Positions 26,563 to 37,829 of a stretch of 48,504 bases of DNA are shown here, in pieces. Under the pieces are notes generated by a model. It made no database searches. It was not told where the DNA came from and saw only the letters and a list, made by a program, of their open reading frames with translations. Positions within the stretch are counted from its first letter, which is position 1; each line of letters starts with the position of its first letter. A program made the position numbers and the translations under genes. The DNA is from Gammaproteobacteria bacterium (GTDB lineage Bacteria; Pseudomonadota; Gammaproteobacteria; Pseudomonadales; Azotimanducaceae), in contig VXSY01000152.1 in the NCBI GenBank assembly GCA_009837725.1, positions 1 through 48,504 of the forward strand, written 5' to 3'.

Positions 26563-26852
26563 TGCTGCTGATCCGCTGCCCTTATTGCTGCGAGGAACGG
26601 AGCGAAGAGGAGTTCACCTGCGCCGGAGAGGGGGGCATCCGCCGGCCGGCAAGCCCCGACGATCTTTCCGATGCGCAATGGGCCGACTACTTGCACTTCC
26701 GCACCAACCCCAAGGGTCTCCATCGGGAAATCTGGTGCCACACGGCCGGTTGCCGACGCTACTTCGATGTCGTGCGGGACACGGTGACCTATGCCATCCA
26801 CTCCACGACGCCCATCGGCGCGACACCCGCAACCCGTGAAACGGATGACTGA
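26562..26852 (+). CDS. soxD: Sarcosine oxidase delta subunit
   Basis: This small zinc-binding subunit is 96 aa long, the normal size. It shows the expected cysteine pattern: CPYCCEERSEEEF at residues 6-18 and a second set in EIWCHTAGCRRYF near 57-69. The start overlaps the soxB stop (TGATG) and the end overlaps the soxA start by eight bases. In known enzymes the delta subunit stabilises the alpha-beta complex. Confidence 0.95.
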   Translation: MLLIRCPYCCEERSEEEFTCAGEGGIRRPASPDDLSDAQWADYLHFRTNPKGLHREIWCHTAGCRRYFDVVRDTVTYAIHSTTPIGATPATRETDD

Positions 26853-29800
26853 CGTGACCCGAAGGCTGCCGGAAGGAGGCGCGATCGACCGTTCGCGGCC
26901 CCTTGCCTTCACCTTCAACGGCGTGACGCTAACGGGCTACGAGGGCGACACGCTGGCGTCGGCCCTGCTCGCGAACGGTGTCGATGTCGTGGGGCGCAGC
27001 TTCAAGTATGGCCGGCCCCGCGGCATCGTCGGCTATGGGGCGGAAGAACCCAACGCCATCGTCCAGGTGGGCGAAGGCAGCGCCCGCACGCCCAATCTGC
27101 GTGCCACGAGGGTGGAACTCGAAGACGGCATGGTTGCCACCTCCGCCGCGCGGGGACCAGGCACAGCAATGGGAGCTCTGGCAAGGGCGTTCGGACGGCT
27201 ACTGCCGGCCGGCTTCTACTACAAGACCTTCATCCGGCCCCAGGGGCTGTGGGGCTTCTGGGAGGAACGATTGCGCGAGGCCGCCGGGTTCGGCGACGTT
27301 CCGGACGGTGCCGATCCTGACATCTACGAAAGGCGGTACGGCCACGCAGACGTGCTGGTGGTGGGTGCCGGGCCGGCAGGGCTTGCGGCCGCACTCTCGG
27401 CCTCGCGTGCCGGGGCGCGAGTGTTTTTCGCTGACGAGAACTCGGCATTTGGCGGCACGCTGCGGTGGTCGTCGGTCGCCACCGATTCCGAGAGCGCCGG
27501 CGAGTGGTGTCGACACGCATTGGCTGAACTCGCGGACAATCCGGACGTCCACCTGCTCAATCGCGCCACCGCGTTCGGGCTCTACGACCACAACTTTGTC
27601 GGCATCCTGGAGCGATGTGTCGGCAATGCAGAGACCCCAGGCAAGGCCCCTCGGCAACGCCTGCACCAGGTTCGCGCCAAACAGGTGGTGCTCGCCTGCG
27701 GCGCCATCGAACGGCCCATCGTCTTTGCCGGCAATGACCTGCCCGGCGTGATGACGGCTTCTGCGGTATCCGGCTACACCATTCACCACGCCGTCGCGCC
27801 CGGAGAGCGGCTGGTGCTGTTCACCAACAACGACTCTGCGTACGACACAGCGCTGACTTGGCATCGCATCGGCCGCGAGGTGACGGTGGTAGACGTGAGG
27901 CCGACGGCCGACGGCGCGGGGCCTGACGCGGCACGGGCCGCCGGCATCGACATCCGTGTGGGTCACGTCGTGCAGGAGGCGCATGGCCGCCGCCGAGTGA
28001 ACGGCGTTCAGATCGCGCCAGTCGGCGGCGGCAAGATCGAGCGACTCGACTGCGATCTGGTCGCTTCCTCCGGTGGCTGGAATCCGCTGGTGCATCTGTC
28101 GGCACAGACCGGCGTGCGACCCCAGTGGTCGGAAGTCGCCCTCGCCTTTCTCCCCGGGTCCCCCCGCGACGGCGTGCATCACGCCGGCGCCATCAACGGG
28201 CACACATCCACCTCGGCGTGCATGCGCGAAGGCGCCCGCGTCGGCAACGAAGCCGCAAGGCTGGCCGGTTTCGATGGTCCCCGCGACGAGCCCGACTTGC
28301 CGGATGGCGACGACGGGCCATGCGCTCCACCCGAAGCGTTGTTCCTCGTGCCCCACCCGCGACCGAGCCGCGAATCGAGGCAGTTCGTCGATATGCAGCT
28401 CGACGTGACCGTCGCAGATATTGACCTCGCGGCGCGAGAGGGCTACCGCTCCGTCGAGCACGCCAAGCGCTACACGGCGCTCGGCTTCGGCACCGACCAG
28501 GGCAAGCTCGGCAACGTCAACGGCGTCGCCATTCTCGCGAGGGCCCTAGGGCAAGGCATCGACGAAACCGGAACCACCATGTTCCGCCCGCCGTACACGC
28601 CGGTGACCTTCGGCGCCGTGGCGGGCCGCGATGTGGGCGAGTTCTTCGATCCCGCGCGACGCACGCCCATGCACGAGTGGCACGAGACGCATGGCGCCGT
28701 ATGGGAGGACGTGGGTCGGTGGAAGCGCCCGCGCTACTACGCCCGTGGTGCCGACGAGCGCATGGACGAGGCGGTGCGCCGCGAGTGCCTGGCGGCGCGA
28801 GGTGGCGTTGCCATGCTGGACGCCTCGACGCTCGGCAAGATCGACGTGCAGGGACCCGACGCGGCGGTGTTTCTGGACCGCGTGTACAGCAACGGCTTTC
28901 GGCGCCTGGCGGTCGGTCGCTGCCGCTACGGTCTCATGCTGCGCGAGGACGGCACCATCCTGGACGACGGCGTGACGGTGCGCGTGGCCGACAACCGCTA
29001 CCTATTGCACACCACCACCGGCAACGCCGAAGCGGTCCTCTCTTGGCTCGAACTCTGGCGCCAGACCGAGTGGCCGGAGCTAAACGTGCATCTGACTTCC
29101 GTCACGGATCATTGGGCCACGGCAGCGGTGGTAGGGCCGAAGTCGCGAACCGTGTTGCGACGGGTCTGCACCGACATCGACCTGTCTCCAGACGCATTCC
29201 GCTTCATGGACTACCGTGCCGGCCACGTCGCCGGCGTGCCGGCGCGCGTCTATCGCATCAGCTTCAGCGGCGAGCTTTCGTTCGAGGTGAACGTCGCCGC
29301 ACAACACGGGCCGAGGGTATGGGAGGCGCTCATAGCGGCCGGTGATGACTTCGACATCACTCCCTACGGCACCGAGACGATGCACGTGCTGCGCGCCGAG
29401 ATGGGGTTCATCATCGTCGGCCAGGACACCGACGGCTCCATGATCCCGGACGATATGGGCCTCGCGGGCCTCGTGCGCCACGGCAAGCCGTGGGGTTTCC
29501 TGGGCGACCGTTCCCTCTCCCTGCCAGAGCACCAGCGGCCAGACCGACCTCAACTGGTGGGCCTCACGCCGCTGAACCCTGCCACCGTGCTGCCGGAAGG
29601 CGCGCAACTCGTCAAGGAACCGCGCCCGAAGTTGCCGGCGAAGATGCAGGGCCATGTCACATCGAGCTACCTGAGCGCCGCCATGGGCCACTCCTTTGCC
29701 CTCGCCATGGTCAAGGGCGGCCGCGAGCGCATCGGCGAGACCCTCTACAGCCCGCAGGCAGACGGCAGCGTCATTCCCGCGAAGGTGGTGCCGAGCGTGT

Positions 29801-30360
29801 TCTTGGAACCGGTGGTGGATGCGAACGAAGGCGAAAGCCAAGGTGCACCTCAGCCTCTGGCCCTCGCACCGCTACCTGCGGCGACAGCCCCAGCGATGCT
29901 GAACCTCTGCGGCGACGGCACGCACGAGTTCCGCAGGGCGGCTTCCGAGGCGCTCTGCCTCACACTTCCCGGAAGACCATGCACCACCGCCCGCGACACA
30001 AGCATCGCAATCCACTGGCTCGCCCCCGACGAATGGCTGATCGTCGCACCACCCGGCGAAGAGGCGGAGATCGAACGCCGCCTGCGCGAGGCCACGTCCG
30101 CCCCGGGTGCCGCCATCACCGACGTAACCGGCGCCTACATCCTCCTCCGGCTAAGCGGCCCCCAAGCCCGCGAAGCCTTGGCAAGCGCCACCCCGTACGA
30201 CCTCCACCCGCGCAACTTCCCCCCCGGTCGTTGCGTGCAGACCACCCTTGCCAAAACCCAGGCCCTCATAGCCGCCCCAAACGAAGACACCTTCGAAGTC
30301 ATCGTCCGTCGGAGCTACGCCCACTACGCCGAAGCCTGGCTCACCGACGCAAGCTCCTAG
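26845..30360 (+). CDS. soxA: Sarcosine oxidase alpha subunit fused to gamma subunit
   Basis: This 1171-aa polypeptide has a normal alpha subunit in residues 1 to about 995. That part contains an N-terminal ferredoxin-like domain with GRSFKYGRPRG, a dinucleotide motif LVVGAGPAGLAAALSASRAG near 171, a disulfide-reductase-like region with ACGAIERPIVFAGNDLPGVM, and a C-terminal folate-binding GcvT module. After a Pro/Ala-rich linker, residues about 1000-1171 match the gamma subunit (SoxG), with IAIHWLAPDEWLIVAPPGEE, AITDVTGAYILLRLSG and ATPYDLHPRNFPPGRCVQT. No separate soxG follows. The start is ATG 26845 or GTG 26854. The gene ends in a CTAG shared with the stop of the convergent peptidase gene. 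Confidence 0.93.
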   Translation: MTDVTRRLPEGGAIDRSRPLAFTFNGVTLTGYEGDTLASALLANGVDVVGRSFKYGRPRGIVGYGAEEPNAIVQVGEGSARTPNLRATRVELEDGMVATSAARGPGTAMGALARAFGRLLPAGFYYKTFIRPQGLWGFWEERLREAAGFGDVPDGADPDIYERRYGHADVLVVGAGPAGLAAALSASRAGARVFFADENSAFGGTLRWSSVATDSESAGEWCRHALAELADNPDVHLLNRATAFGLYDHNFVGILERCVGNAETPGKAPRQRLHQVRAKQVVLACGAIERPIVFAGNDLPGVMTASAVSGYTIHHAVAPGERLVLFTNNDSAYDTALTWHRIGREVTVVDVRPTADGAGPDAARAAGIDIRVGHVVQEAHGRRRVNGVQIAPVGGGKIERLDCDLVASSGGWNPLVHLSAQTGVRPQWSEVALAFLPGSPRDGVHHAGAINGHTSTSACMREGARVGNEAARLAGFDGPRDEPDLPDGDDGPCAPPEALFLVPHPRPSRESRQFVDMQLDVTVADIDLAAREGYRSVEHAKRYTALGFGTDQGKLGNVNGVAILARALGQGIDETGTTMFRPPYTPVTFGAVAGRDVGEFFDPARRTPMHEWHETHGAVWEDVGRWKRPRYYARGADERMDEAVRRECLAARGGVAMLDASTLGKIDVQGPDAAVFLDRVYSNGFRRLAVGRCRYGLMLREDGTILDDGVTVRVADNRYLLHTTTGNAEAVLSWLELWRQTEWPELNVHLTSVTDHWATAAVVGPKSRTVLRRVCTDIDLSPDAFRFMDYRAGHVAGVPARVYRISFSGELSFEVNVAAQHGPRVWEALIAAGDDFDITPYGTETMHVLRAEMGFIIVGQDTDGSMIPDDMGLAGLVRHGKPWGFLGDRSLSLPEHQRPDRPQLVGLTPLNPATVLPEGAQLVKEPRPKLPAKMQGHVTSSYLSAAMGHSFALAMVKGGRERIGETLYSPQADGSVIPAKVVPSVFLEPVVDANEGESQGAPQPLALAPLPAATAPAMLNLCGDGTHEFRRAASEALCLTLPGRPCTTARDTSIAIHWLAPDEWLIVAPPGEEAEIERRLREATSAPGAAITDVTGAYILLRLSGPQAREALASATPYDLHPRNFPPGRCVQTTLAKTQALIAAPNEDTFEVIVRRSYAHYAEAWLTDASS

Positions 30361-32342: not shown

Positions 32343-32474
32343 AAACGGCTAGTGCCGCCGTTGCGGCCACTGCACGGATCGAATGGCCTCTTCCGGCTTG
32401 AATCTGCGGCTGCCCGCACGCATAGTCTCCGCCGCGTCCCGCATTCGTGCATTGCCACAAGAGGAGTCGGATCG

Positions 32475-33071
32475 ATGGGCAGGAGGAGCCGGTTGCCGGC
32501 AATGGTGGCGGTGGTGGTCTTGGCGCTATCGCTCGCAGGTTGCGGGATCAACAACATCCCCACCATGGACGAGGGCGTGAAGGCGGCCTGGGGGCAGGTG
32601 CAGAATCAGTACCAGCGTCGGGCGGACCTCATTCCAAACCTCGTCAACACCGTGAAGGGCTATGCCGAACACGAGCGCGAGACCCTTTCGGCGGTGACCG
32701 AGGCGCGCGCCAAAGTGGGGCAGATGCGACTCGGAGCGGACGTGATCGACAATCCCGAGGCCTTGCGCACGTTCGAGCGCAACCAGGGCCAGCTTTCGAG
32801 TGCCCTGAGCCGTCTGATGGTGGTGGCGGAACGCTATCCCGACCTCAAGGCCAACCAGAACTTCCTCTCCCTGCAGGCGCAGCTCGAAGGAACCGAGAAC
32901 CGCATCGCCGTGGCGAGGCGCGACTTCGTCCAGGCTGTGCAGGTCTACAACACCGAAATCCGCACCTTCCCGGGCCTCATCTGGCACGCCATTCTCCACG
33001 GCGACATGGAGGTGCGAGAGTCCTTCCAGGCCGCAGAAGGGGCCGACGTGGCGCCCACGGTAGAGTTTTGA
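32475..33071 (+). CDS. lemA: LemA family lipoprotein
   Basis: This 198-aa precursor has a lipoprotein signal with lipobox LAGC and then the LemA coiled helical bundle. The conserved segments are WGQVQNQYQRRADLIPNLVN near the start and FVQAVQVYNTEIRTFPG near the end. ATG at 32475 has GAGGAG nine bases upstream. It is the first gene of a LemA-TPM-TPM set found in many bacteria. The role of LemA is unsettled; a place in envelope maintenance is commonly suggested. The lipobox suggests attachment to the inner or outer membrane. Confidence 0.95.
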   Translation: MGRRSRLPAMVAVVVLALSLAGCGINNIPTMDEGVKAAWGQVQNQYQRRADLIPNLVNTVKGYAEHERETLSAVTEARAKVGQMRLGADVIDNPEALRTFERNQGQLSSALSRLMVVAERYPDLKANQNFLSLQAQLEGTENRIAVARRDFVQAVQVYNTEIRTFPGLIWHAILHGDMEVRESFQAAEGADVAPTVEF

Positions 33072-33130
33072 CGACCTTGAGAACGGACGGAGGGCAACCC
33101 ACCCTCCCCCCAGAGCGAGCCTTTGGTTGG

Positions 33131-33862
33131 ATGCGGGCGTTGCTTGTCACGTTCGCCGGCGTCCTGCTCGCCACTGCAACCAGCGCTGCCGAGTTCCCGA
33201 AGCTCACCGGCCGCGTCGTGGACGAGGCCGGCATTCTGCACCCCAACACCGTTCGCGCACTGTCACGTCAGCTCGAAGCGCACGAGAACGCCGGCGGCAA
33301 CCAAGTGGTGGTGGCCACCGTCGAGTCGCTACGCGGCGACAGCATCGAGAGTTACGGCGTCGATCTTGGCCGCGCTTGGGGCATCGGCCAGGAAGGCGAG
33401 GACAACGGCATCATCCTGCTGGTTGCACCGGCCGAACGAAACGTCCGCATTGAGGTGGGCTATGGGCTCGAAGGCGATCTGCCGGACGCCATCGCCTCGG
33501 CCATCGTCAACATGGATATCCTGCCTCGATTCCGCCAGGGCGACTTCAACGGCGGCGTGGCGGCTGGGGTCACTTCGATCATCTCGGCACTCGGCGGCGA
33601 ATACGTCGTGCGGGAGCCGCCGAGGCAGCAGCGAGACCGTCGCGGCGGCGGCGCGTTCGGCCTGATATGGCTGGTGTTGATTGGCTTCTTCGTCTTCCGC
33701 CGCGGCGGAGGTCTGTTGGGTGGTCTGCTGCTCGGCTCTGTGCTTGGCTCGGTAGCTCGAGACGCACACGGCTTTGGCGGCGGTGCGGGAGGAGGCTTTG
33801 GCGGCGGCTTCGGCGGCGGTGGCGGCAGCTTCGGCGGCGGCGGCGCCTCCGGAAGCTGGTGA
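33131..33862 (+). CDS. TPM domain protein, YgcG type
   Basis: This 243-aa precursor has a signal peptide (residues 1-22, ending TSAAE) and a TPM domain (about 25-150). The domain carries the motif GRVVDEAGILHPNT, GIILLVAPAERNVRIEVGYG and LPDAIASAIVNMDILPRF. A membrane helix (LIWLVLIGFFVF) and a glycine-rich tail follow. TPM domains have been linked to phosphatase activity and to repair of photosystem II, but the bacterial role is unclear. ATG at 33131 fits the signal peptide though the ribosome binding site is weak. It follows lemA by about 60 bases. Confidence 0.9.
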   Translation: MRALLVTFAGVLLATATSAAEFPKLTGRVVDEAGILHPNTVRALSRQLEAHENAGGNQVVVATVESLRGDSIESYGVDLGRAWGIGQEGEDNGIILLVAPAERNVRIEVGYGLEGDLPDAIASAIVNMDILPRFRQGDFNGGVAAGVTSIISALGGEYVVREPPRQQRDRRGGGAFGLIWLVLIGFFVFRRGGGLLGGLLLGSVLGSVARDAHGFGGGAGGGFGGGFGGGGGSFGGGGASGSW

Positions 33863-33886
33863 CGCGGCGGTGATGGAGAGGAACGC

Positions 33887-34516
33887 ATGAGTCTCGTGAC
33901 CGCGGAGCAGCAGACGCGCATTGCCGAAGCGATCGCGGAGGTGGAGCGCCACACCGACGCGGAACTCGTCACCGTCATCGCCGCGGCCAGCGACGATTAT
34001 CGCTACATCCCGCTCTTGTGGGCGGCGCTGGCGGCGCTGTTCGTGCCGGCCTTGCTGTACTTCACGCCGCTGTACGAACTCGATCCGCTCTATCTCTTCT
34101 GGGCGCAGGCTGGCGTGTTCGTGGTTCTGGCGTTGGCCCTCTCCATGAGCGCTTTCCGCGTGCGCCTCATCCCACGCGCAGTGCGCGAATGGCGCGCGTC
34201 GAACATGGCATGCCGCCAGTTCCTCGAACAGGGGCTGCACCACACCGAAGGCGAGACGGGCGTGCTCATCTTCGTCAGCGAGGCGGAGCACTTCGTGGAG
34301 ATTCTCGTGGATCGGGGCATCAGCGCGCTGGTGGAAGACGACGCTTGGCGGGAAATCGTGGCGGACTTCTTGGGCGAGGTTCGTGCCGGACGCGTGGAGG
34401 CTGGCCTTACCCACGCCATCGAGCGGTGCGGCGAGATTCTGGCCCGCACGGTGCCCAAGACCGAAGGCAACACCAACGAACTCGACAACAGGTTGATCCT
34501 GATCGGCTATGAATGA
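33887..34516 (+). CDS. TPM domain membrane protein (COG3762 type)
   Basis: This 209-aa protein has a TPM domain split by two membrane helices (about residues 42-60 and 72-92). The N-terminal part, IAEAIAEVERHTDAELVTVI, and the C-terminal part, TGVLIFVSEAEHFVEILVDR, together form the fold. GAGAGG precedes the ATG. It is the third gene of the LemA/TPM operon and overlaps the following methyltransferase gene by eight bases. The function is unknown but presumably linked to the two preceding products at the membrane. Confidence 0.88.
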   Translation: MSLVTAEQQTRIAEAIAEVERHTDAELVTVIAAASDDYRYIPLLWAALAALFVPALLYFTPLYELDPLYLFWAQAGVFVVLALALSMSAFRVRLIPRAVREWRASNMACRQFLEQGLHHTEGETGVLIFVSEAEHFVEILVDRGISALVEDDAWREIVADFLGEVRAGRVEAGLTHAIERCGEILARTVPKTEGNTNELDNRLILIGYE

Positions 34517-35600
34517 CACAGTGCAAGCGGGACAGCGCCCGCAACTGGATCGGGACCGACTCGAAGCCTTCATCAAGCAGATCGGCTCCCAAGTGGCGGC
34601 CGGCTTCAACTGCTCGCTTTCGCATCTCGGCGACCGTCTGGGCCTCTACCGCGCCTTGGCGGAGGCCGGTCCCATGGACAGCGACGAACTGGCAACACAC
34701 ACAGGCCTGCACGAGCGCTGGCTGCGCGAGTGGCTGCGGCATCAAGCTTGCGTGCAGCAGGTCGAATACGAGGACGGCCGCTTCTCGCTTTCGCCGGAGG
34801 CTGCGGCGGTACTGGCGGAGGAAGGCCACCCGTTCTTCTTCGCCAGCGGCTTCGGCGCGGTGACCGCAACCTACCCTTCGCTGCCGAAGATGCCGGAAGT
34901 GTTCGAGACGGGTCTCGGCCTCACTTACGACGACCACGGAGCCGCCTGCGCCTGCGGTGTGGAACGCATGTCATCCTTCGTGCAGAAGCACGAACTGGTG
35001 CCGAAGATCCTGCCGCAGGTGGAAGGCATGGTGGAACGCCTCGAAGCCGGTGCGCGGGTGGCAGACGTGGGCTGTGGCGCCGGCACGGCAACCGTGGCGA
35101 TGGCGGAGGCGTTCCCCAACTCGACGTTCGTCGGTTACGACACCTCCAAGCACGCCCTCAATCGCGCGGGCGCCAACTGCGCCGCCAGCGCGGCGACCAA
35201 TGTGCGGGTGGCAAACCCCGACGAGGAACCGATGGGCAACGGCCAGTTCGACCTCGTCGCCACCTTCGACGTGGTGCACGACACATCCTATCCGGACCGC
35301 CTCATCGCCGCCGTCTTCAACGCCCTCAAGCCGGACGGCGCGTGGCTCTGCGCCGACATCAACAGCTTCCCCACCTTCGAGCAGAACCTCGCCGAGCACC
35401 CCAACGCCGCCATGCTCTACGGCTTCTCCGTGCTGGTGTGCATGTCCGCAAGCCTGTCCACCCCCGACGGCGCCGGCCTCGGCACCTTGGGCTTCAACGA
35501 ACAGGTGGCCCGCGAAATGACCGCCGCCGCCGGCTTCCAGCACTTCACGGTCCTCGAATACGGCAACGCCATCAACAGCTACTACGACATTCGGCCTTAG
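34509..35600 (+). CDS. Class I SAM-dependent methyltransferase with N-terminal winged helix (Rv2258c-like)
   Basis: This 363-aa cytoplasmic protein has an N-terminal helix-turn-helix-like domain (about 15-95, HLGDRLGLYRALAEAGPMDS) and a Rossmann methyltransferase domain. The SAM-binding motif is VADVGCGAGTATVAMAEAFP near residues 183-202, followed by GYDTSKHALN and DLVATFDVVHD. This layout is that of the uncharacterised Rv2258c type of small-molecule methyltransferase. The start lies inside the TPM gene, so it may be co-translated with the LemA operon. The methyl acceptor is unknown. The 160 bases to the next gene hold nothing I recognise. Confidence 0.88.
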   Translation: MNDTVQAGQRPQLDRDRLEAFIKQIGSQVAAGFNCSLSHLGDRLGLYRALAEAGPMDSDELATHTGLHERWLREWLRHQACVQQVEYEDGRFSLSPEAAAVLAEEGHPFFFASGFGAVTATYPSLPKMPEVFETGLGLTYDDHGAACACGVERMSSFVQKHELVPKILPQVEGMVERLEAGARVADVGCGAGTATVAMAEAFPNSTFVGYDTSKHALNRAGANCAASAATNVRVANPDEEPMGNGQFDLVATFDVVHDTSYPDRLIAAVFNALKPDGAWLCADINSFPTFEQNLAEHPNAAMLYGFSVLVCMSASLSTPDGAGLGTLGFNEQVAREMTAAAGFQHFTVLEYGNAINSYYDIRP

Positions 35601-35760: not shown

Positions 35761-36855
35761 TCAGCCTCCCGCCGCGGCCCTCCCTTCGTAGCGGGCGGTC
35801 TTGGCGGCATAGTCGAAGTCGTCGATGCCGGTTTCCGATCGCATGGATACGGTTGACTCTTGCGTTGTGGGGTCTCGCGGGATGCCGGTCGCGTCTGCAA
35901 CCCGCGTGATGCCGTTGAAGCCGGCGGCTACGGTCAGGGCATCCACCATTGCCTGCTCGCCCATCGCGGCCGCTGCTGCGGCGCGGATGGATGTCAGTTC
36001 CTCCCAGCGGCTGCCGACTGCGGCTTCCGTCAGGGCGCGCAAATGGTCCGAGTGCTCAACGCCGGAATCCGAATCTGCCTCGTTCACCGCGTTCAGGTTG
36101 AAGTCCCGGTTCTCTCGCTGGCCGCTCGCCCGGAGCAGCATGGTGTGCGAGGTGGTTCAGTAGAAACACTCGTTGAGGGCGGAGACGCGGGAGGCGATGA
36201 ACTCGGCTTGGGGCTGCGACACCGCAAGCGGGATGTCGCGCAAGGCATAGTGGCCGCGGAACGCCGTGAAGAAGAGCTCCACCGCGGCCGGCACCGAGCC
36301 CATCGAGCGGGCGATGTTCGGTGCGCCCGGGAGGCCCGTGTCGCTGACGTTACGGTCCGAGACGCGGGTGATGGGCACCCAGGCGCCCTCCTCCACCACG
36401 TCCGGTGTCGGCTGCCCCGTCGGAAGCCCAGGTTCCGGCATCGGCAGTTCCGGCAGCGGCAAGCCCAGCGAAGCGTGCATGGTGTCCACGATCACAGAGG
36501 CGTTGACGACGCTCACGGCCTCGATGTAGCGCTCGCGGGGGATGCCGGCGGCAATCACGCTCGCAAAGACGCTGCGCGTGTAGCGCGCCGGATCGGTGCG
36601 GAGACGGTGAATCATGTCGATGAGCGCCGCCGGCAAGTCGGACACGGTGTCGTGACTGCCCTGCACGGCGAACGGCGACAGCGCCTCCTTGCGGCGCCGG
36701 CAGAGATCGCAGTGCATCGCCGCCCGCGCCTCCGCCACCATCTGCACCCGCTCGGCGCCGCTCCAGAACGGCCCAGGCGACGCGATCATGCGCCAAGCCT
36801 CGCCGTGACGTTCGAGCACGGCAGCGCTGATTGGGTAGCGCGTGTCGTCGTACAT
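35761..36855 (-). CDS. Predicted selenoprotein: double-domain AhpD/CMD-like protein with CxxU motif
   Basis: Read through one in-frame TGA (36159-36157), the frame gives a 364-aa protein with Sec at residue 233. Around it the sequence is NECFY-U-TTSHTMLLR, so Cys230, Sec233 and His237 match the CxxCxxxH redox centre of AhpD/carboxymuconolactone-decarboxylase proteins. Downstream residues continue the family fold (ALTVAAGFNGITRVADATGI). Both halves stay in one frame with no other stop, and the second half has no convincing start of its own. The N-terminal half is a second, degenerate copy of the fold with HCDLCRRRKEAL (Cys49, Cys52). ATG at 36855 has GGAGGAG upstream. A SECIS-like hairpin follows the TGA. 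It probably acts as a peroxidase or thiol-disulfide reductase. A pseudogene or a Cys-to-stop mutation is the alternative. Confidence 0.8.
36121..36139 (-). promoter_or_regulatory. SECIS-like hairpin downstream of the in-frame TGA
   Basis: On the minus strand GCTGCTC (36139-36133) pairs with GAGCGGC (36127-36121), seven pairs with one G-U, closing the loop CGGGC. The loop has G at its second position and starts 24 nt after the TGA. Both properties fit what is known of bacterial SECIS elements, which lie just after the UGA inside the coding region and bind SelB. Confidence 0.65.
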
Positions 36856-36989
36856 GGCGTCGCTCCTCCCTCGATCTGCGCATCATGCGCCGGCGCGTTG
36901 TCGGCAACAAGCACATATCTGCCCGTCCGTTGCATGTCCGGCGCGGAACGATGCTACGGTTGCACTTGGTCCATCAGGGGAAGCACTCC

Positions 36990-37829
36990 ATGCAGATCGG
37001 GACATTCATCTTCGCCACCGGCTATGCAATGCGCATTGACGACCTTGCACGTGAGGTGGAGGCACGCGGCTTCGAGTCGCTGTTCGTGCCGGAGCACACG
37101 CACATTCCCACCAGCCGGCGGAGCCCGTGGCCCGGCGGCGCGGACTTGCCAAAGGAGTATTGGCACACGCTCGACCCCTACGTTTCCCTCATGGCCGCAG
37201 CGGCCGCCACCACGACGCTGCGCGTTGGCACCGGCATCACGCTGCTCACCGAGCGGGATCCCATCGTGACCGCCAAGGAAATCGCGAGCCTGGACTTGCT
37301 CTCGAATGGCCGTGTGGAGATCGGCATCGGCGCCGGCTGGAACGCCGAGGAAATGGAAAACCACGGCACCGAGTTCGCTAGGCGCTTTCGCGTGATGAGC
37401 GAGCGCGCCAAGGCGATGAAGACGCTCTGGAGCGAGGAGGAGCCGGAGTTCCACGGCGAGTTCGTGGATTTCGACCCGGTGTGGTCCTTCCCCAAGCCCG
37501 TGCAACGCCCGAACCCACCCATCCTCATCGGCGGCGAATCCATCCACACCTTGCGCCGGGTGGTGGAGTACGGCGACGGCTGGTTCCCTCGGGCAAGGGG
37601 CGGCTTCGACGCCGCCGGCAATGTCGCCCGTCTGCGCGCAGTGGCGGACGAGGCAGGGCGCGACATGAGCACCCTTTCCATCACCGTCTTCGGCGCCCCG
37701 CCGGACGCGGCGGAACTGGCCAGCTACCGCGAAGCCGGCATCACCCGCGCCGTGCTGGCGTTGCCATCGGCTCCCGCCGACACGCTTCTGCCCCTCCTGG
37801 ATCGCAGAGCCACCCTCTTGTCGGGATAG
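36990..37829 (+). CDS. LLM class oxidoreductase, TIGR03619-like (putative F420-dependent)
   Basis: This 279-aa protein of the luciferase-like superfamily starts MQIGTFIFATGYAMRIDDLA and has FESLFVPEHTHIP, TTLRVGTGITLLTERDPI and SNGRVEIGIGAGWNAEEM, typical of the TIGR03619 group. Members are annotated as coenzyme F420-dependent, but flavin use is equally possible here and no F420 biosynthesis gene is in view. ATG at 36990 has AGGGGAAG upstream; further upstream codons are not conserved. It is divergent from the selenoprotein gene across 134 bp and might share its control. The substrate is unknown. Confidence 0.87.
   Translation: MQIGTFIFATGYAMRIDDLAREVEARGFESLFVPEHTHIPTSRRSPWPGGADLPKEYWHTLDPYVSLMAAAAATTTLRVGTGITLLTERDPIVTAKEIASLDLLSNGRVEIGIGAGWNAEEMENHGTEFARRFRVMSERAKAMKTLWSEEEPEFHGEFVDFDPVWSFPKPVQRPNPPILIGGESIHTLRRVVEYGDGWFPRARGGFDAAGNVARLRAVADEAGRDMSTLSITVFGAPPDAAELASYREAGITRAVLALPSAPADTLLPLLDRRATLLSG

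Follow-up and report, generated by a model that had tools for sequence, protein, structure and literature searches.

An alkylhydroperoxidase-related gene with an in-frame TGA very probably encodes a selenoprotein of the NF041238 family in a gammaproteobacterium

We report a gene that seems to be broken by a stop codon and that, judged from its own sequence and those of its relatives, very probably encodes a working selenium enzyme of an already recorded family. The gene lies on the minus strand of a stretch of gammaproteobacterial DNA of 48,504 nucleotides, which is called the window below (contig VXSY01000152.1 of assembly GCA_009837725.1); the genome to which it belongs (G000) comprises 4.66 Mb in 303 contigs. 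The gene, at positions 35761..36855, would specify an AhpD-related protein of 364 residues in which the in-frame TGA at 36157..36159, on the same strand, is read as selenocysteine (Sec) at residue 233, and its final stop is a TGA as well (35761-35763). A purine-rich stretch on the minus strand, GGGAGGAG (36863..36870, 8-15 nt before the ATG), is by its resemblance a likely ribosome-binding site. That the gene yields one continuous protein with Sec at residue 233 is a reading in which we place high confidence.

The family has a curated model. The window protein matches NCBIfam NF041238 (AhpD_rel_CFYUT, product name alkylhydroperoxidase-related (seleno)protein) with 417.3 bits, the cut-off being 175, residues 10-348 aligning with model positions 2-356 of 357, and it shares the CFYUT motif of the model, as CFY*T, where the asterisk is the stop. 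The first-pass annotation had implied that the double-domain form was new, a claim that does not stand beside a curated, near-full-length model carrying CFYUT in its name. Furthermore, a table in a 2026 review (PMC13188914) maps NF041238 to 'AhpD-related protein (hypothetical protein 1, Sargasso Sea metagenome)', with the motif CxxU, and cites for it the work of Zhang et al. from 2005 (PMC1088965), where the family is first reported, from the Sargasso Sea, with four sequences, function unknown and a predicted SECIS element. The window protein is like this hypothetical protein 1 in its CxxU motif, in a predicted SECIS and in falling under the same model, and the four sequences published there compare with 51 copies read here. 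The window copy is thus a member of NF041238 that differs from it in nothing of kind and sits in one of two well-separated clades; because the model is curated and the family is in print, it is a correct finding, but not one of a new kind, and a modest discovery. The score against AhpD in the strict sense (TIGR00777) is 11.2 bits for a cut-off of 191.95, and that against TIGR01926 is 36 for a cut-off of 81.8, both below the thresholds. The AhpD-like 1 and 2 selenoproteins described from the marine GOS survey (PMC2398784) likewise carry CxxU in an AhpD/CMD domain, but are assigned there to COG2128 and PF02627, whereas the window protein stays under the cut-offs of PF02627 and TIGR01926; the two are set apart here by their descriptions. 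In the open-access literature we found no paper on the function of the protein.

Relatives were collected in two ways. A profile search, rather than a motif search, of 58 related genomes gave 63 rows, 51 of which span the Sec site, including the window copy, a second copy from its genome and two partial sequences (L030, 283 aa, and L073, 167 aa); the other 12 are three fragments that miss the site and nine part-length matches of at most 24.6 bits. The second collection was picked by the pattern C-[FY]-Y-stop-T-x-x-H, with 98 motif matches giving 80 distinct post-TGA stretches that align gap-free, and a 78-row protein alignment being left once two incomplete sequences (L030 and L120) are removed, so that the residues of the pattern are constant by construction in both. 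Since a stop at the motif was required for inclusion, the 80-sequence set is no evidence for the TGA itself.

The residues about the TGA are those of an AhpD active site. Translation places Cys230, the TGA and His237 on the CxxCxxxH motif, as the first-pass annotation had them. The codons of Cys230, Phe231 and Tyr232 (36160..36168, minus strand) precede the TGA in a C-F-Y-U motif whose C and Y are present in 51/51 profile-found rows, the codon of His237, assigned to the proton relay, lies at 36145..36147 (minus strand; H in 51/51), and that of Glu218, also of the relay, at 36202..36204 (minus strand; E in 78/78 rows). In the account of PMC3141380 the relay of Mycobacterium tuberculosis AhpD consists of Glu118, Cys130, His132, Cys133 and His137, and that of the AhpD-like protein PA0269 (2O4D) of Glu36, Cys48, Tyr50, Cys51 and His55, a common arrangement E-x11-C-x-Y/H-C-x3-H. 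The corresponding E218, C230, Y232, U233 and H237 of the window protein have the identical spacing (0, +12, +14, +15, +19); C, Y, U and H recur in all 51 profile-found rows and all five AhpD relay positions are kept. Where these two AhpDs have their second cysteine the window protein has Sec, and it carries in addition an N-terminal part of about 150 residues with a C-x-x-C of its own. A search for homologues with cysteine at the Sec position was also successful: the family profile aligns the site to Cys in the AhpD-like PDB chains 6k40 (E 3.3e-14) and 2oyo (E 1.4e-12), both from outside the family.

On this basis the protein is probably a selenol-thiol redox enzyme whose substrates would be organic hydroperoxides or disulfides and whose redox pair would be C230 and Sec233. 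These residues lie in what would be an AhpD/CMD-type domain in the C-terminal part (roughly residues 180-330), where H237 and E218 activate the pair. The selenol or the thiol would attack a hydroperoxide or another oxidised substrate, Sec233 acting as either the attacking or the resolving residue; a C230-U233 selenenylsulfide would form, and either another thiol system or the N-terminal C49-x-x-C52, which is conserved, would then reduce it. Both the C230-U233 chemistry and the role of C49/C52 are drawn by analogy. We somewhat favour peroxidase or thiol-reductase chemistry.

An activity other than peroxide reduction, for example a selenol thiol-disulfide or decarboxylase-like reaction on a metabolite, is possible for such a selenoprotein, if rather doubtful. 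The CMD/AhpD superfamily as described in PMC3141380 includes non-peroxidases, and no AhpC-like gene was found among the window neighbours scanned; against this, the five AhpD relay positions are kept here, whereas the gamma-CMD proteins are described in the same paper as being without C-x-x-C. The genes alongside give a hint of another pathway that does not extend far. A winged-helix/methyltransferase gene (34509-35600) and two TPM-domain genes, the row spanning 32447-35600, run convergently towards the selenoprotein gene. The methyltransferase and both TPM genes also stand beside the gene in two relatives (L017, L018) and in G465 (L169), and G476 (L168) keeps the methyltransferase alone, the matches in the latter two genomes being at 54-58% identity, but the methyltransferase is absent from L019, L020 and 18 of 20 wider stretches. 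As a convergent gene is no operon partner, we treat this neighbourhood as a lead only.

Other neighbours recur still less. On the far side, and divergent from the selenoprotein gene, lies an F420-dependent LLM class oxidoreductase (36831-37829; TIGR03619, 270.7 bits), for which only distant matches (28-33% identity) flank a few loci, at about 30% in L175 and L177, the upstream DNA of L017 and L018 being too short for a judgement. Weak matches are otherwise scattered, to an aldo/keto reductase (36%, in L170) and to a peptidase S9 (26%, in L020 and L173); apart from these and the methyltransferase/TPM genes, no window neighbour was found near the gene in the stretches compared. Elsewhere in the window a single frame (26791-30360) is an alpha-gamma fusion of sarcosine oxidase, matching TIGR01372 (alpha) with 1302.7 bits and TIGR01375 (gamma) with 144.6 bits.

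The N-terminal half of the probable selenol-thiol enzyme is conserved in its own right. It holds a C49-x-x-C52 pair (36700..36711, minus strand), a possible second redox or metal site, with C49 in 76 and C52 in 75 of the 78 rows, together with H68 (76/78), H83 (77/78) and D124 (77/78); two of 49 sequences, L052 and L053, in which no C-x-x-C was seen, were left out of alignment A4. The first-pass annotation had called the protein double-domain, which would make this half a repeat of the AhpD domain, and here the comparisons are no more than suggestive: the repeat was not established by profile-profile comparison, family libraries or PDB sequences. Aligned with hhalign at two settings, the N half and the C half are related with probabilities of 0.2% (E 0.27) and 1.1% (E 0.047); among 48 N halves there is no CMD match and TIGR01926 is found in three (best E 0.0096); a PDB search with the N-half profile returned no AhpD chain; and the N part of a single relative (L050) matches TIGR04169 weakly (E 0.002). 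An AlphaFold model from five close sequences reached a mean pLDDT of 36.8, too poor for use. Sestrin 2, a longer protein with an active site of the AhpD type (PMC4674687), offers a parallel, with the differences that its two-fold pseudo-symmetry comes from a crystal structure, while the repeat in the window protein is suspected only, and that of the two cysteines Sestrin retains just the first, while the NF041238 family keeps the first Cys and has Sec as the second.

We turn to the reading of the TGA. Across the 364-codon minus-strand frame, from 36855 to 35761, the TGA at 36159-36157 is the sole internal stop, in the translated context NECFY*TTSHTMLLR. The first-pass annotation had described two same-frame open reading frames separated by this one TGA, a gene that ordinary gene calling would report as two; translation bears out the description, and a mechanical ORF listing does yield two ORFs. 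The joined protein matches the Pfam CMD domain (PF02627) with E 6e-4 and 20.1 bits, slightly under the gathering score of 23, and the domain was found in neither half when these were searched separately; since the match needs the joined protein, the frame with its TGA is more than chance. The two listed ORFs could in principle be two proteins, with termination at the TGA and re-initiation at an ATG 15 nt further on (36141), but this would split the protein inside its active-site motif and divide a domain that Pfam sees in neither part, and codon +6 is ATG in only 20 of the 80 sequences, being Thr, Leu, Val or others elsewhere. With the ATG mostly not conserved and the active site divided, we reject re-initiation as highly improbable.

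One continuous selenoprotein calls for a signal after the TGA, and the DNA there is constrained in a manner that suits one. In the proposed course of translation the ribosome would reach the UGA at codon 233, a stem-loop 18-36 nt downstream would recruit SelB and Sec-tRNA(Sec), and Sec would be inserted without termination. The window copy contains a SECIS-like hairpin at this place (36121..36139, minus strand), with 7 bp and the 5-nt loop CGGGC (36128-36132), in which G is at loop position 2. Throughout the 80 sequences the core is formed by nt 21-24 pairing with nt 30-33 about a 5-nt loop, the 4-bp core being intact in 78, and every one has G at loop position 2 with G or U after it. Positions 24 and 30 pair as C-G in 74 sequences and as U-A in the other six, with no broken pair; the U-A rows are found in both clades of the tree, L031 in one and L043, L055, L109, L115 and L117 in the other, so that, read by eye, the C-G/U-A double change arose at least twice. 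Compared with 500 shuffles, none was as good in the number of paired cells, none in the number of cells with double changes and one in the covariation score, although two of the five measures did not stand above the shuffles (pairs with double changes, 73/500; further pair types, 283/500).

Codon choice within the hairpin, at nt 20-34 after the TGA, tells the same story, in that the synonymous codons are fixed beyond what the protein needs. The Leu codon at +8 is CTC or CTT in 80/80 sequences, whereas these two make up 36% of the 2301 Leu codons in the rest of the frames; in the 78 rows where +11 is Ser the codon is always AGY, against 41% of 1744 Ser codons elsewhere; and the Arg codon CGC never occurs at +9, though it makes up 44% of 2121 Arg codons elsewhere, the binomial figures of these codon tests taking no account of relatedness. 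We also applied by script the bacterial SECIS criteria given in PMC13188914 (a loop of 3-9 nt with G at position 1 or 2, a stem of 4-16 bp, 16-37 nt from UGA to loop and an MFE of at most -7.5). The window copy fits this model, with a 5-nt loop, G at position 2, 7 bp, 24 nt and a local hairpin of -11.0 kcal/mol; in the family as a whole the loop and spacing fit, but the short 23-nt hairpins reach -7.5 kcal/mol in only 37 of the 80 sequences (median -6.6). Over a 64-nt region, the window sequence is no more stable than shuffled sequence (z -0.30, 72/200 shuffles as good). The search for a SECIS element after the TGA has thus returned a SECIS-like hairpin with compensatory changes, whose short form misses the energy threshold in most copies.

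A genome that reads UGA as Sec should carry selA, selB, selC and selD, and all four are present in G000, each above its curated cut-off. The tRNA-Sec (selC) scores 67.1 bits for a gathering threshold of 47 and has, by ARAGORN, the anticodon tca (TCA; UCA in RNA); selB scores 380 bits (cut-off 242), and selA, which immediately precedes it on the contig they share, 515.5 bits (cut-off 267.9). SelD (TIGR00476; 242-245 bits, cut-off 125) forms part of a 748-residue fusion (L074:1405-3651), in which it stands behind a pyridine nucleotide-disulfide oxidoreductase domain (TIGR03169); against TIGR04369, 'fusion_not_SelD', the fusion scores 464.6, which is under the cut-off of 700. The models for tRNA-Sec, SelB and SelD give weak matches in 14 of 14 control genomes, and only matches over the cut-off were used, which in the controls number 5/14 for tRNA-Sec, 2/14 for SelB and 2/14 for SelD. 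With these genes, the Cys of the outside homologues and the SECIS-like hairpin, the proposal of the first-pass annotation that Sec takes the place of the second redox cysteine in an AhpD-like selenoprotein is well supported.

The presence of SelB in the GTDB family does not follow that of the selenoprotein gene. Among the matches listed, with the classes assigned by eye, 111 of the 137 carriers and 50 of the 69 genomes without the gene have SelB over the cut-off (Fisher p 0.21); as SelB is widespread in the group, its distribution neither supports nor refutes Sec. Among the same listed matches, 26 of the 137 carriers are without a full SelB, several of them being fragmented assemblies. Two carriers of high completeness, G548 (96) and G031 (91), have SelB matches that reach only the level of the non-SelB rows.

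The frame would equally be open if TGA were a sense codon throughout this genome (code 4 or 25) or were read by a near-cognate tRNA without Sec. We give this very little probability: TGA is the final stop in 4 of 11 other window frames checked, which are free of internal stops by construction, and it also ends the selenoprotein gene; downstream of the internal TGA both codon choice and base pairing are constrained; and the Sec machinery of the genome is complete. As TGA terminates frames in the window and this machinery is present, general reassignment was rejected.

The reading of the TGA as Sec gains further from its conservation. The 51 profile-found rows that span the site have a TGA, 51/51, in C-[FY]-Y-stop-T-x-x-H, with Phe or Tyr in the second place; among four relatives from gammaproteobacterial MAGs, with 78-94% identity to the window copy, all four have it. 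Among the matches listed from 390 genomes of the order, 17 genomes are over the cut-off, 13 belonging to the same GTDB family, and the 20 over-cut-off rows listed (at least 352 bits, the next row being at 56.7) each have exactly one TGA. Of the 206 genomes of the GTDB family, 137 exceed the NF041238 cut-off in at least one row, and TGA is present in every such row among the matches listed, down to 367 bits. Two of the listed copies have an extra stop, a TGA in G486:C108 and a TAG in G504:C1. In the former (L120) it is in frame, roughly 100 codons ahead of the Sec TGA in the linker that joins the two halves, and is probably decay or a sequence error. That the window gene is a pseudogene or an assembly error, a sense codon having been mutated or misread to TGA and the halves being remnants, has almost no probability, for although there is a single in-frame stop in an otherwise open frame, and the extra stops of these two copies suggest that some copies may decay, the protein is conserved past the stop and the identical TGA recurs in 51/51 rows across two long-branch clades, and its presence in many genomes makes an assembly error very unlikely and in effect refutes both.

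Cysteine forms were sought directly. A scan of the 206 GTDB-family genomes for C-[FY]-Y-C-T-x-x-H, a pattern that a Cys form with other neighbouring residues would escape, gave one match, an 18-codon frame without family similarity and hence a chance match; the same scan with TGA, a control run on the 58 related genomes, gave 51 sites in 32 of them, and the reversed pattern gave none. For hypothetical protein 1 the row of PMC1088965 reads 4/7/0/5, in which 7 and 5 may be counts of Cys forms if the columns mean what we assume; in the GTDB family studied here no Cys form of the motif was found. In a sample of the phylum the family is over the cut-off in one of 398 genomes among the matches listed, the window's own, so that this sample did not bring up the Cys forms that the 2005 paper implies. 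Plasmid and phage collections gave no match to the family, and a scan of viral contigs gave 40 pattern matches and no relative.

The tree, rooted at its midpoint, consists of two clades divided by long branches. The genome of the window has a second TGA-bearing member (G000:C241:29647-30702; L051, L077) that falls in the other clade from the window copy, and single genomes hold up to five copies (G015). With two clades, up to five copies and no Cys form seen in 206 genomes, one may speculate that the family split early and became an obligate selenoprotein in this group and could be a self-contained two-site enzyme, in which an N-terminal C-x-x-C domain would be a diverged AhpD repeat that reduces the C-terminal C-x-x-U site; we consider this combination unlikely. 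If it were true, a separate AhpC/AhpD partner would not be needed.

The present work adds a dense set of sequences to this selenoprotein family, and the window gene is a clean example of what is one gene to evolution and two to mechanical ORF calling. The Sec codon is kept in all copies read, which raises the question of what keeps Cys from serving in its place. According to PMC13188914, selenoproteins nearly always have Cys homologues, and for this reason a group with Sec only would be of use in finding out what Sec contributes to an AhpD-type site.
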